From Verrucomicrobiaceae bacterium (GTDB lineage: Bacteria > Verrucomicrobiota > Verrucomicrobiia > Verrucomicrobiales > Verrucomicrobiaceae): a stretch of 64,000 nucleotides of DNA. Position 1 is the stretch's first letter. The number at the start of each line of letters is the position of its first letter. The translations under genes were made by a program, and so were the position numbers. The notes below the pieces were generated by a model. It worked only from the letters and a program-made list of their open reading frames with translations. It did not search any database and was not told the origin of the DNA. The stretch spans positions 186,001 to 250,000 of the forward strand of contig JABTUN010000003.1 in NCBI GenBank assembly GCA_015075365.1. The letters are read 5' to 3'. This document shows, one piece after another, positions 1,803 through 30,493 of the stretch.

Positions 1803-1826
1803 GACGGTCAAATTTGGATGGTGCGC

Positions 1827-3908: not shown

Positions 3909-4078
3909 GGCTGGGATAGTTCATCAAACAACTCGGCAGGCATAAAGTTGCGCGGATTGGTTGATTTCACTAGGTTGGCGAAGGATTGGAAAAAACCTTG
4001 TAACAAAGCCTCTCGAACCTGGTATAGGGAAGTTGAATTTGGTCAGATTAACTCTCTTAATGCATTTGCAGTCCCAAT

Positions 4079-7555: not shown

Positions 7556-7567
7556 GCAACATCGGAT

Positions 7568-8413: not shown

Positions 8414-8415
8414 CG

Positions 8416-8907
8416 TTATTCCCGATTCTGGATTTGATGCGCTTCGCCCGGCTCTGAGTCCTGATTCGGCGCGGGCGCGGGTCTGGAATGCCTGGGCTCG
8501 TTCGGGCGCAGTTTCTTCGCCAGGCGGTCGAGGACGCCGTTGACGAAGGAACCAGATTCGCCAGCGCTGAGGGCCTTGGCGACTTCGATGGCCTCGTTCA
8601 AAACGACGGGCGCGGGAACCTCCGGGCAGTGCAGCAACTCGTGAACAGCCATGCGCAGCACATTACGGTCCACGGTGGAGAGGCGCTCGAAGCTGAAATT
8701 CACCAGGCAGCCGCGGATGTGCTCGTCGATGGCGGTTTGATGCTGCAGCACGCCTTTGATCAGGGTTTCGGCATACTGGCGGGTGCCGGCCTTGGCGGTG
8801 TGGAGCGTCCAAAACGTCTCCAACTGGCTTTCCTGCGCCTCGCTGTGCATGTCACAGGAGAAAAGGTATTGAACGGCGGCTTCGCGGCCTTCGCGGCGTT
8901 TTCCCAT
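8416..8907 (-). CDS. nusB: Transcription antitermination factor NusB
   Basis: An all-helical RNA-binding protein that joins NusE(S10), NusA and NusG in antitermination on rRNA operons. The sequence has the family start GKRREGREAAVQYLFSCDM and the C-terminal VLNEAIEVAKALSAGESGSFVNGVLDRLAKKLR. I start at the ATG at 8907 (MGKRREGREA), 10 bases after the ribH stop, because the ATG at 8937 would add ten residues overlapping ribH. The C-terminal 25 residues are a polar tail not typical of the family. The ribH-nusB order is very common in bacteria. Confidence 0.95.
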   Translation of the reverse strand: MGKRREGREAAVQYLFSCDMHSEAQESQLETFWTLHTAKAGTRQYAETLIKGVLQHQTAIDEHIRGCLVNFSFERLSTVDRNVLRMAVHELLHCPEVPAPVVLNEAIEVAKALSAGESGSFVNGVLDRLAKKLRPNEPRHSRPAPAPNQDSEPGEAHQIQNRE

Positions 8908-8917
8908 GGTGTGTGGT

Positions 8918-9418
8918 TCAGGCGAGTTCAGTTTCACCGGCGAATCCGGCGCGCATTTTGGCGAAGAGATTGATCATCTGCACGCAGACGCGCGCAGCCT
9001 CGGTGCCGCGATTGATGGTGGCGCCCAGGCAGCGCTCCTCGGCCTGCTCCGCATCATCAACGAGCAGCACCTCGTGCACCACGGGCGTGCAATGCCGCAC
9101 CGCCATGTCTTGCAGCGCCTGCGTGACGCTGCTGCCGACGAGATCGGCATGCTGCGTGCTGCCGCGGATGATGACACCGAGCGCGATGACGGCATCCGGA
9201 TTCGCATTGCGCAAAACCAGCTCCGTGGTCACCGGAATCTCAAACGCTCCCGGCACGCGATACACGTCCACCGTGGCCTGCGGTGCCAGATCTTCCAGCT
9301 CCGCCGCCACGGCGTTCACGAGGCCCTGCACGAACTGGTTGTTGTACATGCTCGCCACGACGGCGATGGAAACCGGCGCATCAAGCGGGCGGGGACGGGC
9401 GGGGGCGAATTGGGACAT
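8918..9418 (-). CDS. ribH: 6,7-dimethyl-8-ribityllumazine synthase
   Basis: The penultimate enzyme of riboflavin synthesis, condensing 5-amino-6-ribitylaminouracil with dihydroxybutanone phosphate. The 166 residues show the substrate loop GAFEIPVTTELVL and the conserved ALGVIIRGSTQHADLVGSSVTQALQ segment with the catalytic-site histidine; the family usually has GxxxHxxxxxxxxxxG at this place. RibBA, which supplies the butanone phosphate, is encoded immediately upstream with a 43-base gap that holds a period-7 repeat. The cytosolic 60-mer or pentamer assembly cannot be told from sequence. Confidence 0.96.
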   Translation of the reverse strand: MSQFAPARPRPLDAPVSIAVVASMYNNQFVQGLVNAVAAELEDLAPQATVDVYRVPGAFEIPVTTELVLRNANPDAVIALGVIIRGSTQHADLVGSSVTQALQDMAVRHCTPVVHEVLLVDDAEQAEERCLGATINRGTEAARVCVQMINLFAKMRAGFAGETELA

Positions 9419-14213: not shown

Positions 14214-14918
14214 CTATACATCCATCGCTGCGCCGTTTTTCCTCAGCCACTCCTTTCGATCCCGATAGTCAGACATGATTTTATCCACCTCGTTCCAAAA
14301 TGCGTCCGTGTGATCAAGGTGATGCAAATGGCAGAGCTCGTGGACGATGAGATAGTCGATGACCGAGGCAGGGGCCATCATGCACTTCCAGTGCAAGGCA
14401 ATATTGCCTTTTGAAGAGCACGAGCCCCAGCGGTTGCCGAGTTCACGAACCGTCAGGCGGCGAACTGTCACGCCGACTTTCGGAGCGAAGTAATCTACGC
14501 GCTTCTGAATCCGTTCAAGCCCCCGAGCGGCATAGAAGGCCTGAAATGCCGCTTTCGCTGCTTCGACACCGCCTGAGTCGATGAGTTCCCTTCTCAGGCA
14601 AAAACGACCGCCTTTCAGCAAAAGCGGCGCAGGTTGTTTGGCTTTGAGTTGAAGACGGTAGGACCGTCCGAGGTAGAGAAACCCTTCCCCATTCCGATAC
14701 TCGCGCAGAACACGGGTGGCATTGGCGTCCCGCCACTCCGCCAGCGTCTTGTAGATCCACAGCCGCCGGGATTGGACGATGCCAGCGATGCGCTGTTCGG
14801 TCAGTTGTCTGGGGGCACGCACCAAGACACGTCCATCGCGCTCGACAACAATGTCTGCCGTCGTCCGCCTGGTGCGAACCACTTCATAGGTGAGATCTTT
14901 GTCGTGAGCGATTTTCAT
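14214..14918 (-). CDS. YgjP-type metalloprotease (DUF45, M48-like)
   Basis: A 234-residue DUF45 protein. The zinc site is VHELCHLHHLDHTDAFW (HExxH plus a downstream His), preceded by the family hallmark RELGNRWGSCSSKGNIALHW. The N-terminal 130 residues form the usual beta-rich YgjP region. Its ATG overlaps the hsdR stop by 4 bases, so it is translated as the last gene of the hsdR unit. Genes of this family very often sit beside hsdR in type I restriction loci; a role in processing or turnover of the restriction complex has been proposed but I know of no settled function. It is cytosolic with no signal peptide. Confidence 0.88.
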   Translation of the reverse strand: MKIAHDKDLTYEVVRTRRTTADIVVERDGRVLVRAPRQLTEQRIAGIVQSRRLWIYKTLAEWRDANATRVLREYRNGEGFLYLGRSYRLQLKAKQPAPLLLKGGRFCLRRELIDSGGVEAAKAAFQAFYAARGLERIQKRVDYFAPKVGVTVRRLTVRELGNRWGSCSSKGNIALHWKCMMAPASVIDYLIVHELCHLHHLDHTDAFWNEVDKIMSDYRDRKEWLRKNGAAMDV

Positions 14919-17900
14919 TTAACCAGCTCATCATGGCGTTTTTCGGCCAGCCTGACGATCTCGACGGCGATTCGCTCCTGCATGGCCACGACCTGGGGAA
15001 TGCCGGAGATAAGAATCTCGGTGCCGATGTTGCCCCGCAGTTTTCTCACTTCGATGGGCTTTTTCCAGAAGTCGATGATGTTGATCGTTTCCTGAAGCAT
15101 CTGGACCACTTTCAACATGAGCGCCTTCAAGGGGTCGGCGTGCTCAGGTGGAACGGGTGCATCACCAAACGCGATCTGCACGACGTGATCGTAGAAGGTT
15201 GATGCCTCTTTTGTCATGCCTTGATGAGCCTCCTTGCGCCCCTCGGACGCCTCGACGCGGAGTTTCTCATACTCCTCGGCCAGAACCTTCCAGTTGTCCC
15301 GGTGCTCCTGGATGAGCTTCTCCAGTTTTTCGCTCAGCTTTTTGTAAAAGGCTGGATCTTCATCAAAGTGGACCGTGCAGTGCTTGCGGATAGCATGTTC
15401 CATCTCGCTGGCCTTGGCCTCTGGGTCGCCGCCAGAGTGTTTCTGGACGTTCGCGATGAAGTCGTCCGAGAGCAGCTCAATCGGTGGAATCTTGGGGTTG
15501 ATGCCGAGGTCGATGAGGTGCTCGTTGATGAGATCTTTCACCTTGGCACCAGCGTCTGCAATATCGAGTGACTCGTCCTTGTAGCGCTCTTTGACCATCC
15601 GCAGCAAGTAGCCAAAACGTCTTGCAGGCACCCGATAGGAATGCCCGGCCGCATTGGGCAGAATCAAATTCAAGCTCATGAGAAACTTCTTCAAATACAC
15701 CTCGAAGTCCGCCCTTCGCTTGATGTCCTTCATCGCTGTGACAGCCGAATGAACGACCGCCACTTCGGCTTCCGGGTCTGGAAGCAGACCCTTCACAAAG
15801 TCTTCAATTTTGGAGACGCCGGCAGCGCGAAAATGCTGCAACAAGCGTTGATAGCGCTCTTCCAGAATGGGCAGCTCCGTCAGGAGGTCCTTCAAGCCGC
15901 CTTGAAGATCCTGCGCATCCTCCTCCGCGTAGATGGAAAGAGCCGTGGTGAGGTGGTTGGCCAGTCCAATGTAATCCACGATAAAGCCGCGTTGCTTGCC
16001 GGTCGCCACCCGATTCACGCGGGCAATAGCCTGCAACAGGTTGTGTTCCTTCAGCCGCTTGTCGATATACATCACCTGCTCCACAGGGGCATCGAATCCC
16101 GTCAGGAGCATGTCACAGACGATCAGGAAGGCGATGCCGGTCAGATCCTTGTCGGGATCTTCCAAATCGAAGGGCTTGCAGAAGTTTTCCACCGCGTTCC
16201 AGCGACGCGCTTCCTTCCGGGCCTCAGTCACCACAGCAAGTTCATTGGTGGCGTCGGACGAGACGACCACGACAGCCTTCAGGAAGGCAATCCGGCGGAT
16301 AAGTTCCGCGTCAGGCTTGGGCTTGAGCCTTTCCTGATCAAGCCGCTCAGCCAAAGCGGTTCTGATGGCTTTCTGGTAGCGCACGGCCGCGAGCTTGGAG
16401 TGGCATACCACTTGTGCCTTGAAGCCATCAGGCAGGATGTTGTCGATGTAATGATCGACCAGATCTCGTGAGATGGCCTCAATGCGCTTTTCAGCCTCCA
16501 GGATGTCCCCGCTCGCCCCATACTTGCGTTTGATGGCGGCGATCTCCTCCTCGGTGCGCTGGCGGAAAAGGTCTTCAAACTTGGTGTCAAAGCCATGCTT
16601 GTCCTTGAGGGCTGTCTCCGCTGTCCTCCCATCGTAGAGGATCTGAAGCGTGGCTCCATCATGCACCGCATCCATCAGCTTGTAGGTGTCGATGTATTCG
16701 CCGAAGCGCTTGGTCGTCCGCTTGTTACCGTGCTGTTCGGTGATCAGCGGCGTGCCGGTAAAGGCGATGCGCGTGGCATGGGGAAAGGCCTCGAAGATGT
16801 TGTCGCCGAGATCAGAGCCCTGGGTGCGATGCGCCTCGTCAATCATCAGCAGGATGCGTTCGGAGCGGTTCACCACTCCAAAGGTTTCGGCTGAAGGGGG
16901 CGCACCATAGCTCACCAGAGCTTCAGCCACCACGGCAGGAAGTTCCTCGCTCCGATCCATGAACTTGTGGGTCATCACCATGTTGATGTCGGAAGCGCCG
17001 CCGCTGAGATGGTCGCGGAGCTGCGCCGTGCTTTCGATCACGTTCACCTTGCCGCCGATGAGCTTGGCTGTGGCGGCGAGCTGTTCTTCGAGGTCCACAC
17101 GGTCATTGATGAGCAGAATCTTGATATCGGCGAGGTCCGCCGCTGCACGAATCATGCGTGCCACAAAGACCATCGTTAGCGACTTGCCGGAGCCCTGCGT
17201 ATGCCACACCACGCCCGAGCGCTCCAGCGGGCTCTTCCCCGCCCGCAGACGGTCGATGATCCGGCAGGCAGCGCGGTATTGCTGGTAGCGGCACACCACT
17301 TTCACGCGCTTGCCGCTGTCGGTATCCATGAAGACCGAGCAGGTGCGCAGGAGGTGGAGCAGCGTCTCCGGCGGCAGCATCCCCTGGATCAGGCGTTCCT
17401 GCTCGCGTTCGATGCCCAAGGGCGGCGTGTAGTTCCGATGGCGTTCCGGCCAGATGTCCTTCCAAGCGTAAAAGTGCTCGTAGCCTGAGGTGATGCTCCC
17501 ATAGGTCGCCTTCTCTCCGCAGGTCGAGATGAGCAAGAGATTGGTATGAAAGAGGCGGGGCTCGCCTTCGCGCAGGCCTGCTGCTTTCGTTTCCTTCCGG
17601 CCATCGCGGTAGCGCAGCAGTTGCTCAAAGGCGGCGTGCATTGGGTTAGCCGTGCTGGCGTCGCCGATCTTGGCTTCCACGATCACCAGCGGGATGCCGT
17701 TCAGAAAGAGCACGATGTCCGGGATGATGAACTCCTTCACACAACCGGGCGTGTCGATGCGGAACTGGTTGATGGCGTGAAAAGTGTTTCGCTCCGGGTG
17801 CTCGAAGTCGATCAGCTTCACCACCGGGTCAGGCTCGCCAGTTTCCTCGTTGCGATCCACCTGAGCCTTGAACAGCAGCTTCTGGATCGCTTCATTCGCT

Positions 17901-18151
17901 TCGAGCAGTGTCCGATTGGGCTGCCGCAGAATCTGGCTCCGCAGGTCGTCGAGCTGGCGGTCCGTCAGCCATGGATTGATGGCCCGCACCGCTTGGCGGA
18001 AGACTTCAGGCAGCAACCACTCACGAAAGGTCTTCCGCAGGCTCTTGGCTGGATCACTCGGGATCATGCCATGCCCTTGATCCACCACCGTCCAGCGCAG
18101 AGCCGAGAGCTGGTCGAGGAAAGGCTTTTCGACGTGGAGGTATTCCGACAT
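14915..18151 (-). CDS. hsdR: Type I restriction enzyme R subunit (HsdR)
   Basis: The motor-nuclease subunit that translocates DNA and cleaves it when the HsdMS complex meets unmethylated sites. It has 1078 residues. The N-terminal PD-(D/E)xK nuclease is seen at D145 (IIPDIVLFL) and E159-A-K161 (VIVEAK), the helicase Walker A at 320-324 (HTQGSGKSLTM), the DEAH box in LLMIDEAHRTQGSDLG, then the second RecA domain (LTGFDAPVEQVMYIDK, LLQAIARVNR) and a C-terminal helical region. All key motifs are intact. Unusually it is separated from hsdS and hsdM by nearly 8 kb of other genes on the same strand, which makes those genes candidates for one functional locus. Confidence 0.96.
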   Translation of the reverse strand: MSEYLHVEKPFLDQLSALRWTVVDQGHGMIPSDPAKSLRKTFREWLLPEVFRQAVRAINPWLTDRQLDDLRSQILRQPNRTLLEANEAIQKLLFKAQVDRNEETGEPDPVVKLIDFEHPERNTFHAINQFRIDTPGCVKEFIIPDIVLFLNGIPLVIVEAKIGDASTANPMHAAFEQLLRYRDGRKETKAAGLREGEPRLFHTNLLLISTCGEKATYGSITSGYEHFYAWKDIWPERHRNYTPPLGIEREQERLIQGMLPPETLLHLLRTCSVFMDTDSGKRVKVVCRYQQYRAACRIIDRLRAGKSPLERSGVVWHTQGSGKSLTMVFVARMIRAAADLADIKILLINDRVDLEEQLAATAKLIGGKVNVIESTAQLRDHLSGGASDINMVMTHKFMDRSEELPAVVAEALVSYGAPPSAETFGVVNRSERILLMIDEAHRTQGSDLGDNIFEAFPHATRIAFTGTPLITEQHGNKRTTKRFGEYIDTYKLMDAVHDGATLQILYDGRTAETALKDKHGFDTKFEDLFRQRTEEEIAAIKRKYGASGDILEAEKRIEAISRDLVDHYIDNILPDGFKAQVVCHSKLAAVRYQKAIRTALAERLDQERLKPKPDAELIRRIAFLKAVVVVSSDATNELAVVTEARKEARRWNAVENFCKPFDLEDPDKDLTGIAFLIVCDMLLTGFDAPVEQVMYIDKRLKEHNLLQAIARVNRVATGKQRGFIVDYIGLANHLTTALSIYAEEDAQDLQGGLKDLLTELPILEERYQRLLQHFRAAGVSKIEDFVKGLLPDPEAEVAVVHSAVTAMKDIKRRADFEVYLKKFLMSLNLILPNAAGHSYRVPARRFGYLLRMVKERYKDESLDIADAGAKVKDLINEHLIDLGINPKIPPIELLSDDFIANVQKHSGGDPEAKASEMEHAIRKHCTVHFDEDPAFYKKLSEKLEKLIQEHRDNWKVLAEEYEKLRVEASEGRKEAHQGMTKEASTFYDHVVQIAFGDAPVPPEHADPLKALMLKVVQMLQETINIIDFWKKPIEVRKLRGNIGTEILISGIPQVVAMQERIAVEIVRLAEKRHDELVK

Positions 18152-18158
18152 GAGGTGA

Positions 18159-18983
18159 CTAGGCTAGCAGCGCTTCGGCAAGCGTCACGCATTGCTGGCG
18201 GATTTGCAGCGACTCCGCCGCCAATTCCGGTTTGGTGTGCTGATTGTTCAGGCGAAAGGCGGCACAGGCTAGGCTGCCGTCTGCCTCGGCCGACAAAAAG
18301 CAGGTTTTCAATGCTTCGACGGCTCCTGCCATCCCCCGGTTGACTTCCCGCTCCGCGTGAAAGGCCGCGACTGCGGCACTTGGTCCTTCGGCGTAGTTCG
18401 TCAGCAGGTGCATCACATCATGCGCGTCCTTGGGCGCTTTGCGTCCCGTAGGACCACCAAACGCGTTCAGTTTCAGCACCAGCAGCGGTCCTACACTGGC
18501 GGTTTGCACGAGAACTGTCCTTTGCCCCCCAACCAAAGAGTGTCCGCTCACGGAGATGGCGTGGCGGGACAGCAGAGCCCGCTCGATTCCCGGCATGATC
18601 GACACGCCCAGCCCCGCATCCACCATGGCGGTGCCACGCTTGGATCTGCCGTCATCGGTTAGAAGATCGACATACATCTTCAGGCCTTCGATCACACGAA
18701 TGAAACGACCTTCTTCCCAGCGGAATCCGTGCCCGGCCAGTGTGTCGGTGATGCTCCCATACATGCCTTCTCCCGCCGCGAGACTGACACCGAGATCCAC
18801 GTCCATCGTCACAGCGCCGGGGGTGCCTTCGGCCGCAGGATGGGTCAGTAAATCTACGGCCAGCCCGCCCACGAGCACGAGATCATCATGATAGGCCGCT
18901 AGACTGTCCCAGACAGTGATCAGCGTGCGCCGGGCGAGGTCCAGCCCTTCCGGCGGATAGGCATCAAAGGTGGCGTGTTTCAT
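18159..18983 (-). CDS. AbiEii-like nucleotidyltransferase (putative toxin)
   Basis: About 274 residues with the nucleotidyltransferase signature LVLVGGLAVDLL followed by MDVDLGV, which gives the G-G and the D-x-D metal-binding pair of the Pol-beta superfamily; a further Asp lies in MYVDLL. This is the layout of AbiEii/MenT-type toxins, which modify tRNA or other targets when not restrained. Its ATG (18983) overlaps the upstream AbiEi-like stop by 4 bases, the usual antitoxin-toxin coupling; I prefer it to an upstream ATG at 19001 for this reason. It ends 8 bases before hsdR. Toxicity is inferred from the family and gene order. Confidence 0.75.
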   Translation of the reverse strand: MKHATFDAYPPEGLDLARRTLITVWDSLAAYHDDLVLVGGLAVDLLTHPAAEGTPGAVTMDVDLGVSLAAGEGMYGSITDTLAGHGFRWEEGRFIRVIEGLKMYVDLLTDDGRSKRGTAMVDAGLGVSIMPGIERALLSRHAISVSGHSLVGGQRTVLVQTASVGPLLVLKLNAFGGPTGRKAPKDAHDVMHLLTNYAEGPSAAVAAFHAEREVNRGMAGAVEALKTCFLSAEADGSLACAAFRLNNQHTKPELAAESLQIRQQCVTLAEALLA

Positions 18984-20008
18984 TGGGCAAAGCCCTCCCA
19001 TTGACGAAGTTCTTGAGCAGCCTCGGGACCGCGCAGTCCCTGGCCGATCAGGTCGAGGTAAATCTGCACATCACAGACCAGACGGAATCCTCCCGCTTCC
19101 TGCGTCTCCTGGAACACTCCTTCGTCCTTTGGCACAGCCAGCCAGAGGTTGCCACCGGCGTTCACCTCCCGGCTCAGCGGCAGTTTGAGCGCCACGGGCT
19201 CCCGCACATAAAAACTCGCCACGGGTGGGGTCGTGTGAGGGCGGCGCAGCCATGCAGCCAGCCATTGGGTCAGCAAAACGTTGTTCGCCCCCAGTTGATC
19301 CCGCACCTCGGCAGCCACCTGGAGCAGATCATTCGACAGCACCGAGAACTGGCGCACCAATGTCCGCCGTGACCATGCGTCTTCGGCACGCCAGCGGTCT
19401 AGCAGGCCATCGAAGTCCCGGAGCCGGTAGTGCAGCCGTCCGCGTTTGGAGGTCTTCGGCTCCTCCACTTCCAGGAACCTTTCTCGCACCAGTTGCGCCA
19501 GCACGCGCGAGGTCAGCCCGGTCGCCACTCGGGTCCTCTCCACCAGTTCCGCCTGTGTCCAGGCTGACTTCGTCCGTTGAGCCAGCAGGGTGCGGATCAA
19601 ACGGGCAGTTTTTGGGGCAAAGAGGTCCGGTTCCGCCGCTTGGGCTGCCCGGTAGGTGCTGCGTTTGGGTTCCCGGTCCCAGTGAATACCGTCCGCATGA
19701 AGAAACAGCCTGCCATTGAGGTCCGCATGGTTGATTCCGGCACGGGCGAGATCAGCCGCCAATGGAGCCGGGATGTGAGGACAGAGCAGCAGCGCAGGGG
19801 AACTGCCTGCCAGGTCCGGATCGTCCAGCAGCCGCCGGGATGGATGCAGCACCGGCTTGATCGCAAACTGCGCCTTTCGCCCCGCCGCCTTGACCACCAA
19901 ATCCTCCCCTACTCGCAGTTCAGCCCCCGGCACGGCCACCTCCGCCACGGTCCGGGGGAACTCGTGGATCAGTTGGGAGAGCTGGGTGATGGACTTGAAT
20001 GCACTCAC
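18980..20008 (-). CDS. AbiEi-like winged-helix antitoxin/regulator
   Basis: About 342 residues. The middle contains a winged helix-turn-helix (SAWTQAELVERTRVATGLTS, then RVLAQLVRERFLEVEE), and the C-terminus ends DVQIYLDLIGQGLRGPEAAQ, which resembles AbiEi-type proteins paired with nucleotidyltransferases. It is translationally coupled to the NTase gene. The start is uncertain: the longest frame opens at a TTG (20056), but the GTG at 20008 leaves a perfect 18-base palindrome just upstream as an operator, so I use the GTG. Expected roles are restraint of the NTase and repression of its own promoter. Confidence 0.68.
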   Translation of the reverse strand: MSAFKSITQLSQLIHEFPRTVAEVAVPGAELRVGEDLVVKAAGRKAQFAIKPVLHPSRRLLDDPDLAGSSPALLLCPHIPAPLAADLARAGINHADLNGRLFLHADGIHWDREPKRSTYRAAQAAEPDLFAPKTARLIRTLLAQRTKSAWTQAELVERTRVATGLTSRVLAQLVRERFLEVEEPKTSKRGRLHYRLRDFDGLLDRWRAEDAWSRRTLVRQFSVLSNDLLQVAAEVRDQLGANNVLLTQWLAAWLRRPHTTPPVASFYVREPVALKLPLSREVNAGGNLWLAVPKDEGVFQETQEAGGFRLVCDVQIYLDLIGQGLRGPEAAQELRQWEGFAQ

Positions 20009-20016
20009 TGGATTAA

Positions 20017-20034
20017 TTTCACTAGCTAGTGAAA
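20017..20034. promoter_or_regulatory. Perfect 18-bp palindrome, candidate operator
   Basis: TTTCACTAGCTAGTGAAA is a perfect inverted repeat 9-26 bases upstream of the GTG start of the AbiEi-like gene. Antitoxins of this kind commonly autoregulate by binding such repeats. If translation starts at the upstream TTG, the palindrome would be coding. Confidence 0.55.
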
Positions 20035-20169
20035 CATGTCTTTTAAGTGAAGGCAAGGGTAACTTTGAGTGTGCAAGCTTGCCTCCACAGATCGCGAAAA
20101 CTCGGGAAACAGCCGCTTATTGGTCCAGACCAATGACGGATAGTTGTTCAAACCTGTACAAACTGGTAG

Positions 20170-21051
20170 TCACCCAGCTTCCGCCTCCTGAATGGCTTTC
20201 AACGTCTTACCACCAGCATCTTTCCATTCCATACGGCCATTGGCGGCCCGCCCGAGGAGCACACCGGCGGCGGTGGACGGGCTATCCAGGTCGTAGTCTT
20301 GGGTGAACCGATAGGTGTTTCCATCAGCCACCATCACGCCTTGAGCCAGCAAATCTCGGCGCTTGGCGGCCATGTAGGCGTGAATCGCCTCGGACTCCTG
20401 AATCACGGCCGATGAACCCGCACACACGATGAACCCACCCGGCTGGGCATAGCCCTTGGCGGTGATAGACTTCGATTTGGGCGTTAAAAACAGCATCGTC
20501 CGGGCACTGGCAGCGGTTTTAGACTCTTTCTGCTCAAAGGCCGAAATACCCAGGAGAGGCAGCACTCGGAGCATGGTGCGCAGAAAGCCCTCCGCGTCCG
20601 CCGCATCGGCATCACCGAGGTTCGGGCCAGTTGGTTCGTTGCCATTGTCCAAATGGCAGCGTTTGGCGGTGGACGCTCGCTCGATCAGACGGCTCTCGAT
20701 GTATTGGGCGGCAGCCACATTCAGGGCGTTGTCCTTGCTCACAAAAAACACCGCCCACTCCCAGAAGTCCTTGTTCTTGTGGTGGGCATCCAAGCGCGTC
20801 TGAATGCGGTCACTTTGACCGATGTAGAGACTCGGCAGGGCACTTCCTTCCGGGCCGGGGCCAACCAGAATGTAAACGCCCGTTCGTCCAAACTCGTCTC
20901 TCTGACTCACCTCCCTGTAGGCCGCACGCGGGAAAGCAACGCCCACACCCGACCAGTTCGGCTGGTCGATCACCCGAAGGCCATCGGGATCTCCATGTGG
21001 CATGAAAAGGCGGACCGTGTAGGCGAGTTCGTTGAAGCGTTCTTGTGCCAT
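20170..21051 (-). CDS. GIY-YIG nuclease with DUF4357 domain
   Basis: A 293-residue protein. Residues 55-125 carry a GIY-YIG endonuclease core: GVYILVGP (58-65), LYIGQSDRIQTRL (75-87, with the YIG and catalytic arginine) and YIESRLI with the metal-binding Glu at about 119. Residues 200-290 match the DUF4357 domain (GGFIVCAGSSAV, the variable middle, and STAAGVLLGRAANG), a small domain often appended to nucleases and type I restriction proteins. It is 27 bases downstream of the protease gene and seems to be the last gene of that operon. A DNA- or RNA-cleaving effector role is plausible; the substrate is unknown. Confidence 0.85.
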   Translation of the reverse strand: MAQERFNELAYTVRLFMPHGDPDGLRVIDQPNWSGVGVAFPRAAYREVSQRDEFGRTGVYILVGPGPEGSALPSLYIGQSDRIQTRLDAHHKNKDFWEWAVFFVSKDNALNVAAAQYIESRLIERASTAKRCHLDNGNEPTGPNLGDADAADAEGFLRTMLRVLPLLGISAFEQKESKTAASARTMLFLTPKSKSITAKGYAQPGGFIVCAGSSAVIQESEAIHAYMAAKRRDLLAQGVMVADGNTYRFTQDYDLDSPSTAAGVLLGRAANGRMEWKDAGGKTLKAIQEAEAG

Positions 21052-21078: not shown

Positions 21079-22119
21079 TTACTCGAAGCCATCGGGCTTG
21101 TCTTTGATCTCCGAAAGATTCAGCGTCAGCACCGTGTCACCGGCATCGCCGATGGCGGCAATCGTAAACCCTTCCGCAGGATAGAACTCGGTGCTGGCGG
21201 TTCCATTTTTGGAAACCGTCTCAAACATTTCATAGGAGTCCTCTTTTTTGCGGCCAAAGCCGGGATAAGTGATGAAGGTCACATATCGTCCACGAGGTTT
21301 CGGAGATCCCGGCAGGCGGCGATAGGTCGCTTCTACCACAAAGCGTTCTTCCTCGTGATCCCAGCTCACCTTGGCAGTCAGGCATCGCTGGCGGTTGTTT
21401 TCGAGAAGTCCGAAAAGGTCGAGATTCGGGTCGTCCACGTCCAGATCATGCACGGTGGGCCGGTCGGACGGCGGGATGCGAAAACGCACGGGCAGATCAT
21501 TATAAAACCGGCAAAGCACCCGGCTCGGGATGCACCAGGACACCCCATGATCAAACAGCTCGCGCACCACGATGCCTACAAATGCTTTTAGATCCTCTGA
21601 CCACACCGGCGCTCCGCTGAAGCCGCCTTTGACGAAAAGAGCACTGTTCCCGTCCATCTGAACCAGCCCAGCAGCATTCGCAGCATGCAGCAGACCACTG
21701 GCGTTGCGTCCCTGCGGGTCACCGTCGGGAAAGCCCAGCACGGAGTAGCGCTTGCCACCATGCCGCAGAGGCGTTGCAAACTCCATCGCAGGGATATTGA
21801 AGCTGCGGCTCAATTTCAGCAAGGCCAGATCGTTCAGCGCAGACTTGCCACGGGCATAGGCACCCAGTTTGATCACTCTCGCCAGCACCACCGGCTGTCC
21901 ATCCATCCCGATGATTTTCACGCGGACAGTCGTTTTGAGGTCGGGCTTCTTGTCGCGGTTCGCAGCCTGGACGACATGGTAGCAGGTCAGGATATGCTCA
22001 CCGTCGATCAAACAGCCCGCGCCGACGAAGCTTCTGTCTAACCCGAGTAATCCCGCCACACGAGCCGTCTCGGGATCAGTCGCTCGCAGTGTCTGCGTTC
22101 TGACTCTTGGTATTTTCAT
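21079..22119 (-). CDS. Trypsin-like serine protease with C-terminal beta-sandwich domain
   Basis: A 346-residue cytosolic protein (no signal peptide). Residues 20-205 are a trypsin-like domain with a full catalytic triad: H48 in ILTCYHVVQAA, D97 in LNDLALLKL and S168 in GGFSGAPVW. Residues 225-340 form a beta-rich domain (VEATYRRLPGSPKPRGRYVT, and FTIAAIGDAGDTVLTLNL) that resembles prokaryotic YEATS-type sandwiches, a tentative match. The whole protein is homologous to the first 330 residues of the KAP fusion at 22663-26073, where the triad is lost. It starts 1 base after the Trypco1 stop. Such intracellular trypsins with Trypco partners are known from predicted conflict systems; the substrate is unknown. 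Confidence 0.88.
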   Translation of the reverse strand: MKIPRVRTQTLRATDPETARVAGLLGLDRSFVGAGCLIDGEHILTCYHVVQAANRDKKPDLKTTVRVKIIGMDGQPVVLARVIKLGAYARGKSALNDLALLKLSRSFNIPAMEFATPLRHGGKRYSVLGFPDGDPQGRNASGLLHAANAAGLVQMDGNSALFVKGGFSGAPVWSEDLKAFVGIVVRELFDHGVSWCIPSRVLCRFYNDLPVRFRIPPSDRPTVHDLDVDDPNLDLFGLLENNRQRCLTAKVSWDHEEERFVVEATYRRLPGSPKPRGRYVTFITYPGFGRKKEDSYEMFETVSKNGTASTEFYPAEGFTIAAIGDAGDTVLTLNLSEIKDKPDGFE

Positions 22120-22662: not shown

Positions 22663-25600
22663 TCAAAAAGAATATCGTTTCACCAGCGGCAGCCAGTATT
22701 GAATCTTCCCTTCATCAAAAGGCGCGAACTTCTCCGCTTCAATCTCTGCGAGGGCCTTCATCAGGGCATCCCAGTCTGGATGAGGGCTGCTAATCTGTGG
22801 AGTCCAGGTTTTCAGTTCGATCACACGCCCGAACCAGTGCTCGCGGGCCAGGGCCGGATACGCGGCGGCGACCGCGAGCATTAGAAGTGGGTAACGATAC
22901 TCGGGAAGGTCATCGGCCCAAGATCCCGCTCCGATGAACATGTCCCAGTAAATCTCTTCCACCCCTGTGCGGATCAAACAGTATGTGTTGGCCAGTCGCT
23001 TAACCGCGCGGGGCGTGCGGAATAGCGGCTGGCATGATTTGAGGTCGCGATGCTCCCGATACTCCAACTTGAGCCGCATTGGGATGACCGGTTTGGGTTC
23101 CGGGGGCTTGGGATCAGCAACAGTGGTTGCCTGGCTCGCTTCATGAACTTCTGATCGGATCTCGGGTTGCTGAGCAGCACCCGCGTTTGACTGGGGTGTA
23201 GTAGCTGCTGTAGCACTGGAAGCCGTGGGGCTCGCCGCCGCACCACCCGATTGCATCGTGGAAGTCGGTGCTGGGTTTGCTAGGGCTGCAACGTTGACTG
23301 AGGCTGGAGCCTCAGCTTTTGGCTTGTGCCAGTCCACTGGCAAAAGTTCGTCCACCAGCCTGTCAAAGCCATCTCGCTCGATGGGTTGCAACTGGAACGG
23401 CACTTGAAAAATCTTCTCCAGATAGTCCAGCGGGCTGGCCAGTTGATCCCGCCCCTCCTCGGTCTTCCCGCCATTTCGGCTTCGACCGCTCGCGAGGAGT
23501 TTAGGGTAGTGCTCCAGCAAGCTTTTGCGCAACCAGCGCGGGTCAACAGCGACAACCACGGCAAAGATTGGGAAGGACAGCAGCAGGTGTACCGCCTCCA
23601 ACACTTCGATCACACGGCTGGATTTGCAGCGGTCCAGATCGTCAATATACAAGACAATGCGGTCAAGCATCGGGCTGTCCCCGTCTTTGAACTCCGCTCC
23701 TTCCTGCAAAAGAGAACTCAACTGCTTGAAGTCTCGTCGAACCAGGCTGACCAGCCCGAGGTGCTGCCGGTAGTCGTTCGCACCGGAGCGTTGTTCGAGA
23801 AATTTCAGGAGCCTCCTGCCGGGTGCGAGTTCTCGCAGTTCCGACTCGATGGCCCGCACTTTGGCTTCTGCGTCATGCAGCGCCTGCTGAGCCTCGGCTT
23901 CCTTTCTGATATGGGCATCGAGCTTTGCCTGCTGCTCGGCCGGTTCCTTGCCGCTGAGCACTTTTTCGCGTGACTTCTTCACGCTTTCATAGGTCGCCTC
24001 CAGCGTGTTCAACAAATCCGTGCCGCGCTTCGTTTGCGCCGACAACCAGGCCGCCATCGCACCCAGCAGTGAAACAGCCGCCGTCACATTTCGCGTAAAT
24101 CCGGCGAGGCCGCCTTCCATGTTCAAAATCCATGGAACGACGGCGGCCAGCACCACAGGCACGGCCAACGCTACGAACAACAGCACCAGCCGCTGCCAAC
24201 GACCATCCGGGCTCAACAAGGTAAGAGCGAGGTTGCGAAATCTGCCCGCCAAGCTCCTTGCCTCCAAGGCGCGGGTTTCCAATTCGGTGTAAGACTGCGA
24301 CAGACGCGTCAGGCCGAATGCGTCAGCCAGCTTCTTTAGTTGCTCCGACAGGCCGGCATCGGTGGCTACCTTGCTCAAGTCGTCGATGAAGGCTGCAACC
24401 GACTTCTCCTGCTCTTCGCGCTTCTTTGCAGCTTGCTTCAGTTCCTCTTCCGCGGTCTCGCGTGCCTTCTTCGCATCGTCTAGCGCCTTTTTGGCTTCGG
24501 CGGCCAGCGCGCTTTCATCAGCCAGTTTCTTCTTCAGCCTCTCCACCTTTTCGTTTGGGGTGTCCTCCCGGTCGGTCAGGGCTTGGAACAGGTTGTCAAA
24601 GATCTCGCAGACCAGATTCGCCCACAGGTTGGTGTCGAGATAGTGCCATGCATTGAAGTGGATCTGGACCACCTTCCGGCAGAACTCATCGTGTGCCTTG
24701 TTGGCGGACAGAGAATCAATCTCCTGATGTAGCAGCCGCATGAAATAGCTCTTGCCCGTGCCCCAGTCCCCGAACAGGCCCAGCGACAGCGGCAGAGGCG
24801 TCTCCCGGGCGGTGATCAACTGGGCGAGGTGACGCGCATGCTCGGCATTACCCAGCGCATCCTTCAGCGGGGTCTTCAGGTTTCGTGGATCGAAGGCCAC
24901 CAGATCCGTTTCAAACCGGGTGTAAGTCAGTTGGTATTCCGGCACCGGTTCGATCGAATCTTTCTGGAGGATTTTCTTCAAAAAGTCGACCTCCGCTGAT
25001 TGCGATGGGAGTGACGACTCTGCCGGTTCCTCCCTCGCTTCCTCGCCTGGTTCAGCGATTTGCTCACTCGTCACCACTGGCGCAGCTTCCGGCTTCACGA
25101 TCTCCATCAGATTCAAGGTCAGCCTTGTCTCGCCGCCGTCGCCAATCGCCGCAATGGTAAAATCCGGCACGAAGGGACTCGCTTCCACCTCGGCCTTCCC
25201 GGAAGAATCAAGCTCAGCGATGAGCTCGTAGTCCTTCATGTCGGGATAGGTGAGGAAGGTCACAAAGCGCCCCGCAGGTGCGGGTGAGTTGGGCAGCACC
25301 TCATACTTCATTCTCACCCGGGAAAATCCATCTGGATGCCTTTCGACGAGCGTGGCCGTCAGCCTCCTCCTGCCGTTGTCTGATACGTTTCCAAACATTT
25401 CCGCATTGGGATCATCTACGGAATAGTTTTTGATCTTGGGTCGGTCGGCTTCGGGGATGCGGGATATCACGCCGATGTCTGGGAACACCTCACAGATGCG
25501 CGCGCTCGTGATACACAGCGTCGGATCACGGTCGTCCACCAAACCGACAAAAGCCCCCAAGTCGGGTGACCAGACCGGCGCGCCCATGTAGGCTCGATCT

Positions 25601-26073
25601 GCATGATATCCAGTCAGTTGCCACCGCCCCCCTGGCCGTTTCCCTTTCCACCCACAGGTGTCCGCGACGCCATTAGGCTGGTCCGGTGAGAAAGTCTGGA
25701 CCACGAACATTTTGTTCTCCAAAATCAACGGCGTGGCAAATTCAGCGGCTGATGCGCCTTCCCAGACTTCTTTGCCAGCGAACTGCAACATGGCCAAACC
25801 GTCGTCGGGTTCCCGCCCTGGCTTTTGATCAAGCAGAACCATGGGTAAAACGACACCGCTCAGATTTCCCACCGGCGAGACAAAAATGTAGTTACGATAG
25901 GAGGTTCTTTCGAGGGCCTGCTGGACCACGGCTCGGCTCGTAAGCACGTGCTGCCGGTCCACGAGGCATCCGACCCCCAACATTCCCCGTTCACCGGCCC
26001 CCAGATGAATAATCACCAGCGAACTGACTGCATGTGGAGGGAGATTGGGTATTCCTTGGGAAGCCGGTTGCAT
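22663..26073 (-). CDS. Pseudo-trypsin fused to membrane-anchored KAP P-loop NTPase
   Basis: A 1136-residue fusion. Residues 30-205 are a trypsin fold in which all three catalytic positions are changed: A48 (VLTSRAVV), G92 (DDGLAMLQ) and M163 (AYMGAPVW). Residues 215-325 repeat the beta-sandwich of the neighbouring protease (AGRFVTFLTYPDM, DFTIAAIGDGGETRLTLNL). From 390 on is a KAP-type STAND-like NTPase: Walker A GDWGTGKS (435-442), NAWHY, long coiled coils (505-570 and 690-750) flanking two membrane helices (about 628-650 and 662-680), and Walker B IVLYIDDLDRC (806-816). A low-complexity Ala/Thr/Pro linker (920-998) precedes the C-terminal helical part. It is 20 bases after hsdS. KAP ATPases act at the membrane in signalling and phage defence. 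Confidence 0.87.
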   Translation of the reverse strand: MQPASQGIPNLPPHAVSSLVIIHLGAGERGMLGVGCLVDRQHVLTSRAVVQQALERTSYRNYIFVSPVGNLSGVVLPMVLLDQKPGREPDDGLAMLQFAGKEVWEGASAAEFATPLILENKMFVVQTFSPDQPNGVADTCGWKGKRPGGRWQLTGYHADRAYMGAPVWSPDLGAFVGLVDDRDPTLCITSARICEVFPDIGVISRIPEADRPKIKNYSVDDPNAEMFGNVSDNGRRRLTATLVERHPDGFSRVRMKYEVLPNSPAPAGRFVTFLTYPDMKDYELIAELDSSGKAEVEASPFVPDFTIAAIGDGGETRLTLNLMEIVKPEAAPVVTSEQIAEPGEEAREEPAESSLPSQSAEVDFLKKILQKDSIEPVPEYQLTYTRFETDLVAFDPRNLKTPLKDALGNAEHARHLAQLITARETPLPLSLGLFGDWGTGKSYFMRLLHQEIDSLSANKAHDEFCRKVVQIHFNAWHYLDTNLWANLVCEIFDNLFQALTDREDTPNEKVERLKKKLADESALAAEAKKALDDAKKARETAEEELKQAAKKREEQEKSVAAFIDDLSKVATDAGLSEQLKKLADAFGLTRLSQSYTELETRALEARSLAGRFRNLALTLLSPDGRWQRLVLLFVALAVPVVLAAVVPWILNMEGGLAGFTRNVTAAVSLLGAMAAWLSAQTKRGTDLLNTLEATYESVKKSREKVLSGKEPAEQQAKLDAHIRKEAEAQQALHDAEAKVRAIESELRELAPGRRLLKFLEQRSGANDYRQHLGLVSLVRRDFKQLSSLLQEGAEFKDGDSPMLDRIVLYIDDLDRCKSSRVIEVLEAVHLLLSFPIFAVVVAVDPRWLRKSLLEHYPKLLASGRSRNGGKTEEGRDQLASPLDYLEKIFQVPFQLQPIERDGFDRLVDELLPVDWHKPKAEAPASVNVAALANPAPTSTMQSGGAAASPTASSATAATTPQSNAGAAQQPEIRSEVHEASQATTVADPKPPEPKPVIPMRLKLEYREHRDLKSCQPLFRTPRAVKRLANTYCLIRTGVEEIYWDMFIGAGSWADDLPEYRYPLLMLAVAAAYPALAREHWFGRVIELKTWTPQISSPHPDWDALMKALAEIEAEKFAPFDEGKIQYWLPLVKRYSF

Positions 26074-26093: not shown

Positions 26094-27431
26094 TTAACTT
26101 TCCTTGGATGAATCAACCCGCACCCGGCCCGTCAGCAGGTCCTGCATCAGGCCTTGTTTTTGCTGGCGGAGTTTGGCGAAGACTTCTTTTTCGAGCACGA
26201 TTTGCTGGTTCATGGCACTCATAATGGACAAGCTCGTGCGCTGCTCACCTCGGGGCGGGCGGGCGATTTGTTTGCTCAAAATTCTTCCCGGTGACGTGTG
26301 GCGGACTGTCGTCCCAGTCGCTTCAACGATGATCTGTCTGCGAAGACTTTCATTGTTCAGCGCATGACACAGGTAATTCCATTCCCAGCCAGTCTTGTTC
26401 TTCAAATTCACTCGACCCACCCGCTGGTTGTGCAGCACAGGAAAGGTCGTTTCAACCAGTGCAAAGCGCCCAAGGATCAATGTTTGAGGCGAAAGGTCGG
26501 TCATCACGGTGACCATTTCGCCGTGTTCCAAAATCGTTTCCTTTGGGATTGGACCCTGGAAATACTTGGTGTTGCCCGCTGTAAAATACAGACCCCCGTC
26601 ACGATGAAAGTTGCCTGGAGTAAGTAATACCGAGCCGGGCGGCACATCTGAAAAGAACTCACCCGAGAATGCGAAACCGTGTCCGATTCCAATTTCGGTC
26701 TGAAGCGATACAATCTCCCACTCCTTCGGGAGCCAGCCGAGAGGGGTTTCGTGGTAGAGGTGGGGGGCTTCTTGGCGGGTGGGGCGGAGGTGGCCGTCGG
26801 GGGTGACGCCGCGCGTGAACAGGTCGTGCATCAGCCCCGCCTTCAACTGCTCCAGCTTCCCCACCAGCGCCTCCGTCTGCTCCATCGCCTCGTCCACCGT
26901 CGTCAGGATTTCGGCGATCCGGCGCTGTTGAGGTGGAGGTGGAATGCGTGTCCGAATAGCAAGATAGGAACCTTGCGAGATATTCTTCATGCTACCGCTG
27001 GTGCCAGTCGCGGCGCGTGAAACACCTGCGCGAAACTCTGGTGATTGGACCACAAAGCTTAGCCACTTCGTCGAGGTCTCAAGGCCACTACGGAGGACCG
27101 TCTGCCATAGTCTGTCAGGCACGAACAGGTTCGGAAAATCTCCTCCCACATAGGCAGTCTCACCGACGAGATCGAACGTGTTCATTCGGCTAATGAGAAC
27201 CGAATCGGCTCGCGGGTTCAGTGCCGCTCGGACTACTTCACTGGCTACGATTACCTTGTTTTGGCTTGGATCGAACTTACCGCCATTGACACAACTGGTT
27301 TTGAGAATGCCGAACTCATCTGGCGCACAGGGTTTATCCTCGGAGTTGACGCTGACACCAGATTCCAGTCTCTCAACCAAGGTCGAAAGCGGTTCATCCT
27401 TCCAGCCTTGTGGCAAAGGGAGGTTACTCAT
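26094..27431 (-). CDS. hsdS: Type I restriction-modification specificity subunit (HsdS)
   Basis: The DNA-recognition subunit of the type I complex. The 445 residues hold two target-recognition domains (about 1-160 and 225-400), each followed by a conserved helical spacer: [20 protein letters not shown] and [18 protein letters not shown], and at the C-terminus [20 protein letters not shown]. The two different domains imply a bipartite asymmetric target that cannot be predicted by eye. It overlaps hsdM by 8 bases, so M and S are coupled, and is followed after 20 bases by the KAP fusion gene rather than hsdR. Confidence 0.94.
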
Positions 27432-29940
27432 ACCCCAGCTCCTCCAAGAACGTCTTCAGCTTCGCCGCTGCGGTGTCGCGTTTGGCTTCGATGGCCTTGG
27501 CGGTGACGGCGTATTTGGCGTGCAGGTTTTCCAGGGCGGCGAGGCAGGCGCGCTGGTCGGCGCGGAGGTAGCTCTCATACGTTTCGAGGAGGATGCGGTG
27601 CAGGCGGTCGAGGATGACGCGCTTGGCCTCGTCGGTGTCGATCTTGGCACGGGCGGCGGTGACGAGTTCCTCCTGCTTCTTCTCTGTGGCTCGGAGCTGG
27701 GCTTTCAGATCGCGGACTTCATCCTCCAAGGCCTTGTGCTTGAGCAGGCGCTTCTCGATCTCGGTGGCCTCGGCGGTGTAGCTGTTCCAGTCGCCCTTGC
27801 GGCCTTCCTTTTTCGCCAGCTTGGCCTGGGCGTTGAGTTCCTTCAGCTCGGCCTTGAGGCGCTTCACCTCGTCGCCGGGGAGCACGCCGGTGTCGTCGCT
27901 GTCTTCGTAGTCCTCCTCATCCGCAGCGGCGAAGAGGGCGGCCAGCTCGGCCAGGCGCAGGCGGTTCTTCTCCATCTCGGCCAGTACCTCGGGGAACTGG
28001 CTTTGCAGGATGTCGTCGTCCGGGATGAGTTCCGGTCCCCAGCCGGAGAAGGCGATGGATTTGAACTCGGGCTTGAAGAACTCGAAGTAACGGGCCAGCG
28101 CGCCGCGAATCTGGTGTGGCGTGAGCAGGGAAAAAGTGGTTGCGGCTTCAGCCGCATCAGAAGCAGCACTTCGGCTAAAGCCGAAGCCACTTTCTACGAT
28201 GCTGCTGAAGAGCAGGCGGCGGAGTTCATAGACGTTGCCCTTGTTTCCATCCACGGGCGCGAGGGCCTCGACATGCGGGAGGTTTTGGCCCCACCAGGTC
28301 TCCAGCGTGCTGCGGAAGGCGGCGTGCGCGGTGGCGATGCCGGGATCGCTTTTCACCAGATCGGCCAGGGCGCGCTTGTCGGCGACGGCGGGGGTGAAAT
28401 CGGCATAGCGGGCATCGGACGGGCGTGGAGCGAAGACACGCTCCCGCAGTCCGGCGTAGTTCGCCCAGTAGCGGCCGAGGGCCTCGACCTCCGCGACGGG
28501 CACGCCGCCATGCAGATGAGCACGGACATCGTGCGGCTCGGGCGGTGGTGCATTGTCCACATAGCGGCGGATGTTGCAGTTCCAGTCCTCGGCCTCGATC
28601 TCGCTGACGGGCACGAGGCGGGCGTAGCCCTCCACGTCCTGTCGCTGGCGATAGACGTGGACGATTTTGCCGATGTCCTCGGGGCGGAGGAAGTTCTGCG
28701 CCTTGCCCTCGCGGTATTCGCGGTCGGCATTGATGAAGAAGACGTGTTTCCGGTCCGCCGCGCCTTTCTTGTTCACCACGAGGATGCAGGCGGGGATGCC
28801 GGTGCCGTAGAACAGCCCGGCGGGCAGGCCGATGACGGCCTCCAGCCAGCCACGCTCGATGAAGTGCTTCCGCGCCTCCTTTTCCTCGCCACCCCGGAAG
28901 AGCACGCCATGCGGCATGACGGTGGCCATTTTCCCGTCTGCCTTCAGCACGGCGATCATGTGCTGCACGAACATGAGGTCGGCCTTTTTCCCCTTTTCCG
29001 GCAGCCAGACGGCGAAGCGGCCGGGATACTCGATGTCTTTCTTGATGTAGTTCTGCGAGAAGGGCGGGTTCGCTGCCACGCGGTCGAAGCGCTTCAACTC
29101 GCCGCCCTCGGCCTTGTGCTGCGGATGGCGCAGGGTGTCCTCCTGCCGGATGTCGGCGTGCGGGATGCCATGCAGGAGCATGTTCATTTTGCAGATGGAC
29201 CAGGTGGTGCCGATGCTCTCCTGCCCGGCGAGCGCGAGGTCGCGCGGATCGCCGCCGCACTCTCGCACGTAGTCGCGGGTCTGGATCAACATGCCGCCGG
29301 AGCCGCAGGTGGGGTCATACATGCTCATGCCCGCCTCCGGGGCCAGAATCTCGATGATGACGCGCACGACCTCCGCCGGGGTGTAGAACTCGCCCGCTTT
29401 CTTGCCTGCGGAGTCGGCGAAGAACTTGATCAGGTATTCATAAGCCGCGCCGAGGAGGTCCGGGAACTCGAAGTTCTCATCCCGCAAAGGGATCTTCTCG
29501 AAGTTCTGCACGAAGTTCGAGAGCGTGTCATCGTCGAGCGTGCGCTGGCCGATCTTGCGGTTGAAGTTGATGTGCTTCAGCACGTCCTCCAGCGTGTCCA
29601 CATTGGCATCCTCGATGGCTTCGAGGGCTTTGTTCAAAGCGGTGCCGACATTGGTCTTCAGATGGCGGACATGCGACCACCGCGCCTCCGGTGGGACGAA
29701 GAAGGTGTATTTGTCGGGATTGGCGAGCTGGGCCTGGATGATCTCCGGCTTCAAGCCGCGCTCCTGGAGTTCCTTCGCCAGCTTTTCCTGCTCTTGGTCG
29801 AAGAGATCGCTCAGGCGCTTCAGGAACAGCATGCCGAAGATGTATTCCTTATACTCCGAGGCATCCATGTTCCCCCGGAGGTCATCGCAGGCGCGGAAGA
29901 GGAGGCTGGAAAGCTGGGAGAGGGTGAGCTTGGCGGGCAT
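27424..29940 (-). CDS. hsdM: Type I restriction-modification methyltransferase (HsdM), long form
   Basis: The N6-adenine methyltransferase subunit. I start at the ATG at 29940 ([20 protein letters not shown]), the usual HsdM opening, not at an upstream codon at 30021. HsdM_N is at 1-140, AdoMet motif I in [14 protein letters not shown] and catalytic motif IV in [11 protein letters not shown]. It is 838 residues, much longer than the ~500 of classic HsdM; the extra C-terminus (about 470-838) includes an acidic segment and a long coiled coil ([20 protein letters not shown]). A palindromic repeat has inserted in frame at 28133-28193. The AdoMet it needs could come from the metK gene upstream in the island. 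Confidence 0.94.
28133..28193. repeat. 61-bp palindromic repeat inserted in frame within hsdM
   Basis: The element begins AAAGTGG and ends CCACTTT, with two internal hairpins, GCGGCTTCAGCCGC and CTTCGGCTAAAGCCGAAG. It encodes a low-complexity [16 protein letters not shown] stretch in the HsdM C-terminal extension. Such palindromes are normally intergenic REP-like elements. Confidence 0.7.
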
Positions 29941-30493
29941 GTGAGGTTGCCATTCAAGAGTGCGCCCCATGGTTTCGCAATGTCGAAGTGGCAGGAGACT
30001 GGTCCAATCCCCCCCTGACAATGGGATGCGCCTCCTGAGTCAGTCGGGTTTGGGGGCCGATCAGGTGGGCGATTTCCCGAAGACAAGGATGTAAAGCACC
30101 TTTGCAGGCGTCACGAGAGTCCTTGGCTCTGCCGTTGGGGCTGGTTGGGCCGGTCGAGTGCTTCCAGGACGACCAGGCATGGATGTGCCCGGCCTGCTAG
30201 CGGCTGGCATCTTGAGCGCTGCGTAAGTTTCCAATGTGCGTGCGCATTACGACTGTGCCCGGAACGCGAGGCACATCAGGCCCTCAAACTCCGGCGAGTT
30301 CATGTGTCAGAGGCTGGCCACATACAGTCCCGAGAGCCCCCTGTGATGAAGAACCACGAGCGGCGCTTGCAAACTTCCACCGGAGATCCACCGCGAATCC
30401 ACCAGTTTTCGCGGCATCCGCGCTCAAGATCCCAGCATGACCAGGGCACTCGCCGTCTGCATCCTGGAGGCACTTTGGGTCCACACTGCACTC
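29941..30493. other. Intergenic spacer upstream of hsdM, no gene seen
   Basis: About 550 bases between hsdM and the unknown membrane gene. The open frames here have no recognisable domain and no consistent coding pattern. It should contain the hsdM promoter and the 3' end of the metK operon; I see no clear terminator. Confidence 0.5.

Follow-up and report, generated by a model that had tools for sequence, protein, structure and literature searches.

Several themes of bacterial conflict systems in which trypsin-like proteases take part are already in print, namely inactive trypsins in the effector position, the Trypco1 domain, catalytic loss in fused defence domains, and duplicated adaptors. 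The passages of Kaur et al. 2020 (PMC7159879) that concern VMAP ternary systems describe modules that pair Trypco1 with trypsin, together with trypsin effector domains that are inactive, and the corresponding part of Kaur et al. 2021 (PMC8195603) sets out the EAD principle, by which one adaptor occurs both on a core NTPase and in a trypsin gene next to it. Nuclease-protease pairs in Hachiman and AVAST, with a fused HamA that has lost its catalytic motif, are reported in the relevant excerpt of Tuck et al. 2025 (PMC12799240). Here, we analysed a 64-kb stretch of a Verrucomicrobiaceae genome (contig JABTUN010000003.1; hereafter the window), in which a KAP ATPase gene carries an N-terminal head made of a trypsin-like domain without its catalytic triad and a pYEATS-like domain (hereafter the fusion), and in which a protease with the same two-domain layout and an intact triad (hereafter the free protease) is encoded two genes away, with Trypco1 between. 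All coordinates are positions in the window, and residue numbers are those of each protein.

Catalytic residues and divergence of the fused protease domain

The fusion aligns with the free protease over almost all of the latter's length, at ~38-40% identity in pairwise and multiple alignments. Its residues 26-326 match a reference hidden Markov model (HMM), made from three intact relatives alone (the free protease and its homologues at loci L006 and L007, introduced below), at E 1.1e-61, so that homology of the head is not a matter of chance. In pairwise, multiple, and HMM alignments alike, A48 of the fusion lies opposite H48 of the free protease and M163 opposite S168, which bears out two of the three substitutions named in a preliminary description of this sequence. 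The third, D97 to G92, is what MAFFT and HMMER return and is less clean, as the fusion reads DDG before the residues LA where the active proteins read ND, and D91, one residue earlier, could be a displaced aspartate; it is predicted not to rescue catalysis, because His and Ser are both gone. Close to the serine position, GFSG has become AYMG, with A161, two residues before M163, in place of a glycine that we take, by homology, to be that of the oxyanion hole (position 193). The segments GAPVWSxDLxAFVG and EFATPL are common to the fusion and the intact proteins, and the alignment shows four columns (VREL) deleted from the fusion directly after the kept FVG strand. In trypsins, the strand at the position matching FVG lines the substrate sites. 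The deleted columns putatively belong to this substrate-side strand, which weakens the earlier suggestion that the domain still binds substrate.

Compared by profile with trypsin families, the free protease has the Trypsin_2 triad at H48, D97, and S168 (PF13365, 51.2 bits), an assignment supported by profile alignment to the S. aureus V8 protease (E 0.0055). The fusion head has A48, G92 (or D91), and M163 at these positions and, taken alone, has no Pfam hit at E 10 or below, though a trypsin-only HMM matches its residues 26-206 at E 6.6e-22. A pseudogene was considered and rejected, the open reading frame (ORF) being intact over 1136 codons and the KAP motifs kept. Hence, as had been described, one gene cluster holds an intact and a catalytically dead protease-like domain, the dead copy sitting on an intact KAP ATPase.

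The loss was not selective for catalysis, contrary to what had been proposed. Among the 82 protease-domain columns invariant in the three intact relatives, the fusion keeps 38 and loses 44 across the domain, and the chance that all three triad columns fall among those lost is P 0.15 (0.078 with the oxyanion glycine included), so that triad loss shows no excess. The pYEATS domain keeps 35 of its 46 invariant columns (Fisher P 0.0015 against 38/82). Identity between the fusion and the intact proteins is 34-39% in the protease domain, against 51-59% among the intact proteins, whereas the corresponding pYEATS values are 44-46% and 44-52%. By column bootstrap, the excess divergence of the fusion is 0.207 (95% confidence interval 0.135-0.282) in the protease domain and 0.027 (-0.033 to 0.089) in pYEATS, with P(diff<=0) 0.0002 for the difference, and the maximum-likelihood branch of the fusion measures 1.59 in trypsin and 0.89 in pYEATS. 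Since the excess is limited to the protease domain, constraint is, on these alignments, relaxed in the protease part alone, with pYEATS kept at a normal rate. Separately, a recent local duplication of the neighbouring gene was considered and is not supported: in the protease domain the free protease is not the closest to the fusion, and quartet bootstraps split.

Among the invariant columns, retention is higher for nonpolar than for polar positions (33/62 and 5/20, P 0.039), a weak sign of a retained core. AlphaFold2 models were built from four sequences; that of the free protease (predicted local distance difference test, pLDDT, 58.9) matched trypsin-fold PDB chains at E 6e-7, and that of the fusion head (mean pLDDT 39) had no PDB match at E <= 0.001. 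The fold retention asserted in the preliminary description is therefore plausible because of the preferentially kept nonpolar columns and the trypsin-only HMM match, and draws no help from the poor model of the head. At pLDDT 39, comparing the fold of that model has no meaning, and the ENL YEATS chains that came up at ranks 34, 40, and 46 (E 0.10-0.13) were given no weight.

The shared pYEATS-like domain, exchangeable KAP heads, and operon setting

Homology between the fusion and the free protease extends past the protease domain by ~120 residues, to about residue 325 (window 25099); the preliminary description had placed the protease part correctly (25456-25995) and left this second domain outside its interval. 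Neither protein matches pYEATS (PF20305) directly in a Pfam scan. A four-protein profile (A3), however, finds pYEATS-only matches elsewhere, at loci L018 (E 2.4e-9) and L019 (E 5.2e-7), and L018 matches PF20305 over the whole model (54.7 bits, cut-off 26.9), with L019 and L004 slightly below the cut-off at 26.2 and 26.3 bits. As the profile leads to L018 and L018 to PF20305, the shared domain is, by transitivity, pYEATS-like. PF20305 matched nothing in the host genome or in any control, a blank to which we give no weight. It seems to be an exchangeable adaptor, because it also follows a SIR2_2 domain within one protein (L019, 544-1866) and, in L004, a hydrophobic segment and coiled-coil-like stretch recognised by eye.

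A two-sequence alignment, scanned against genome contigs, returned 521 pattern hits and, as the two relatives, L006 in a Burkholderiales metagenome-assembled genome and L007 in Granulicella aggregans, both with an intact triad and neither fused to KAP. L006 is a type I restriction-modification (RM) operon in the order hsdM, hsdS, Trypco1, protease-pYEATS, hsdR, YgjP, which is the window order minus the KAP, GIY-YIG, helix-turn-helix, and AbiEii-like genes. In L007, a TCAD7-DUF900 hydrolase is encoded upstream of the protease-pYEATS gene; these two adjoin a third gene, whose TNT-like match is sub-threshold, at 5706-9229, and the cluster may be another conflict system using protease-pYEATS. Searches with the fusion head in 387 genomes of the phylum gave two matches (its own gene and one pYEATS-only gene) and in 384 genomes of the class six (its own gene, two genes with pYEATS alone, and three weak, partial trypsins), these draws and that of the KAP search below overlapping in part. 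Only L006's own gene was matched in 300 genomes of its order, and 297 genomes of L007's phylum gave eight matches, its own and seven weak partial trypsins. No fusion head was found among plasmids and no whole fusion among phages, and viral contigs searched with the head and the alignments yielded no relatives; the free protease had 17 plasmid trypsin matches.

Residues ~391-1136 of the fusion match KAP_NTPase (PF07693) at 113.9 bits (cut-off 20), with the Walker A motif GDWGTGKS at 435, the DDxDR motif as VLYIDDLDR at 807, and one strong hydrophobic segment at residue 629. Of 287 further genomes of the phylum, one (G194) had a relative of this module at E <= 1e-15; other relatives occurred in six plasmid records and two viral contigs, whereas 170 genomes of the order of L006's host gave no hit with the KAP profile, a blank to which we give no weight. 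The heads were examined at six loci, comprising G194, four of the six plasmid loci, and one of the two viral ones (L031). The heads are TIR_2 (L027), WD40 (L029), or without a Pfam name (L026, L028, L030, L031), that of L026 being LOG/SLOG-like by eye, and the protease-pYEATS profile matches none of the six but both window proteins. The N-terminal domains of the KAP module are, on this comparison, exchangeable among relatives, the head of the window KAP being, by homology, drawn from the protease-pYEATS family. The TIR-KAP protein (L027, 4606-8100) is encoded on a Sinorhizobium plasmid, near genes annotated as DarT-type and SIR2. L026, the G194 locus from the same phylum, runs hsdM, hsdS, long KAP ATPase, GIY-YIG gene (1498-8935), its KAP standing, by gene order, in the slot after hsdS that the fusion occupies in the window. 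Given an L006 without KAP and an L026 with KAP after hsdM-hsdS, the window unites, as judged from these two loci, modules otherwise seen apart, Trypco1 with protease-pYEATS and KAP after hsdS.

By gene content, the window locus is a type I RM operon (Table 1), in which the genes for Trypco1 and the active protease are neighbours, 1 bp apart; GGAG lies 9 nt 5' of the ATG of the fusion. In searches of the host genome, Trypco1 was represented by a single gene and KAP by a single protein, and hsdR was matched (E <= 1e-100) in 1 of 20 genus genomes, the host's own, which gives the island the look of a strain-level acquisition. Two overlapping genes lie between hsdR and the GIY-YIG gene (18159-20056), one for the winged-helix protein and one for the AbiEii-like nucleotidyltransferase, and we infer that the two resemble an AbiE-type pair. 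In the window (14214-14918) and likewise in L006 (13400-14104), a gene for a YgjP-like metallopeptidase shares 4 bp with the end of hsdR, and is, on gene order, a companion common to both RM operons.

Table 1 Features of the locus in window coordinates
Feature	Position	Strand	Basis or remark
KAP fusion, 1136 aa: pseudo-trypsin, pYEATS, acidic/Pro linker, KAP NTPase	22663..26073	-	single unbroken ORF
Pseudo-trypsin domain of fusion, residues 27-206	25456..25995	-	no Pfam match of its own
A48 of fusion (His in three intact relatives)	25930..25932	-	alignments
G92 of fusion (opposite catalytic Asp; D91 one residue earlier)	25798..25800	-	alignments, HMM
M163 of fusion (Ser in three intact relatives)	25585..25587	-	alignments
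pYEATS-like domain of fusion, residues 207-325	25099..25455	-	alignment, profiles
Glu/Pro/Ser-rich linker of fusion, residues 326-390	24904..25098	-	
KAP NTPase module with coiled coil and hydrophobic segment	22663..24903	-	
Walker A of KAP, residues 435-442, intact	24748-24771	-	
Walker B/DDxDR of KAP, residues 807-815, intact	23629-23655	-	
Trypco1 (PF19493), 109 aa	22121..22450	-	Pfam, 70.9 bits
Free Trypsin_2 protease with pYEATS-like domain, 346 aa; H48, D97, S168 intact	21079..22119	-	
GIY-YIG-like nuclease with DUF4357	20170..21051	-	by eye and PADLOC PDC-S14
Winged-helix protein, 358 aa	18980..20056	-	weak MarR-like match
AbiEii-like nucleotidyltransferase	18159..19001	-	marginally above cut-off
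hsdR	14915..18151	-	
hsdS	26094..27431	-	
hsdM	27424..30021	-	

Proposed working of the head and alternative explanations

The reading that we favour, with a probability of about 0.4, is a matched pair of pYEATS adaptors: by means of its pseudoprotease-pYEATS head, the KAP ATPase would dock or restrain the active protease. This protease, associated with Trypco1, has the same protease-pYEATS head as the ATPase, and the ATPase, presumably NTP-driven and probably membrane-associated and oligomeric, would hold or recruit it via pYEATS, the shell of the dead protease serving as a partner surface. When the restriction or the KAP part senses infection, the protease would be freed or clustered and would then cut an effector, candidates being the adjacent GIY-YIG protein and the KAP linker. 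Normal constraint on pYEATS in both proteins suggests that this domain links them, in the manner of paired EAD adaptors, through a putative homotypic binding; the dead protease itself may be a partner surface, bait, or passenger. It is doubtful that all of this adds up to an RM-linked immune relay, with KAP restraining the active protease through the dead protease-pYEATS head and freeing it on infection to cut an effector, and we are as hesitant, taking the two claims jointly, to see in such a relay a bacterial analogue of pseudoprotease-regulated caspase activation on a YEATS-type adaptor; any antiphage role is likewise putative.

Several points weigh against the adaptor pair. A 212-bp gap separates the fusion from Trypco1, so KAP and the protease could be separate units, and self-association of pYEATS is putative. 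Simple decay would likewise give a relaxed protease domain, and one fusion is known, a second KAP fusion or fusion orthologue being absent from the phylum, class, L006-order, L007-phylum, plasmid, and viral searches, so that selection for a dead head is conjectural. No match was obtained between the GIY-YIG-type protein of the window and that of L026. In quartet bootstraps, the fusion and the free protease pair in 69/100 for pYEATS and 21/100 for trypsin, and duplication within the host lineage is weakly supported.

Other explanations divide over what the dead domain does. It could dimerise with the active protease and restrain or activate it independently of pYEATS, as an inactive partner in the way that cFLIP acts on caspase-8. 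That one gene cluster holds both a dead and an active copy, and that hydrophobic core columns are the better kept (33/62 vs 5/20), fits such a partner, as do the dominant-negative or peptide-binding roles suggested for inactive effector-position trypsins in the part of PMC7159879 that treats them; the protease domain nevertheless diverges fastest, the reverse of what a conserved interface would lead one to expect, and the fusion-head model (pLDDT 39) is of inadequate confidence, so we hold this to be unlikely. That the head is a decoy or sensor, with the dead domain as bait for phage protease inhibitors or peptides and the ATPase as alarm, seems to us rather improbable: KAP relatives do carry varied heads (TIR, WD40), the head evolves fast, as bait can, and a decoy reading of inactive enzymes has been published (in the same part of PMC7159879), but a domain whose substrate-side strand is shortened and whose oxyanion glycine is lost might escape inhibitors of the active protease, and the phage partner is purely hypothetical.

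The protease part could also be a decaying passenger, with pYEATS the only working part of the head, or no part of it working at all. Loss of 44/82 invariant columns with no further excess at the triad (P 0.15), a fusion-head model without a trypsin fold, and the single known case all agree with this, whereas the ORF unbroken over 1136 codons, the trypsin-only HMM match to residues 26-206 (E 6.6e-22), and the preferentially kept nonpolar columns do not, and we give it low odds. A chimeric head, with a protease part derived from some distant pseudoprotease and not through loss within the family, would account for the differing distances and best quartets of the protease and pYEATS parts, and is nonetheless very improbable, as GAPVWSxDLxAFVG, EFATPL, and the domain order are common to the fusion and the intact proteins.

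If the adaptor pair is correct, the locus shows a pseudoenzyme built into bacterial immunity beside its own active relative, and pYEATS would be an adaptor that KAP ATPases have in common with proteases and SIR2 proteins. Type I restriction operons that harbour KAP ATPases with exchangeable heads are, further, a place to seek accessory defence genes.

Comparison with described systems

The VMAP ternary systems, as the passages devoted to them present them, have Trypco1 beside a trypsin-like peptidase and an inactive trypsin on a signalling core. The window has both (PF19493 at 70.9 bits, 1 bp from the protease, and the dead trypsin on the fusion), whereas a KAP NTPase serves as its core, within a type I RM gene cluster, and the VMAP partners are missing, with no MoxR, vWA, or VMAP among the ten window proteins scanned. 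With the EAD principle, in the portion of the source that states it, the locus has in common that an NTPase and a neighbouring trypsin-like protease carry copies of one domain; the adaptor in the window is, however, a pYEATS-like beta domain rather than a death-like domain or EAD, and the NTPase copy also has a dead protease. The Hachiman and AVAST pairs resemble it, within the excerpt concerned, in a trypsin-like protease that a defence system has acquired beside a nuclease and in a catalytically dead fused domain. They differ in that the window protease is a free partner, the nuclease is GIY-YIG-like and not MBL (no MBL-fold nuclease, the target that the protease cuts in those pairs, matched among the ten proteins scanned), and the domain that has lost catalysis is the protease. 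QatA, PifA, and PDC-S20 in PADLOC likewise place a KAP NTPase in a defence setting, but their matches to the window KAP are partial only (E 1.7e-18 for QatA, 1.2e-16 for PDC-S20, and 3.7e-14 for PifA), and the QatA NCBIfam model scores 86.2 bits, far under its cut-off of 600. In the open-licence literature, we found no description of a pseudo-trypsin-pYEATS-KAP protein, nor of pYEATS in defence. Together, these comparisons present the pseudo-trypsin-pYEATS-KAP arrangement as new and built from known themes.

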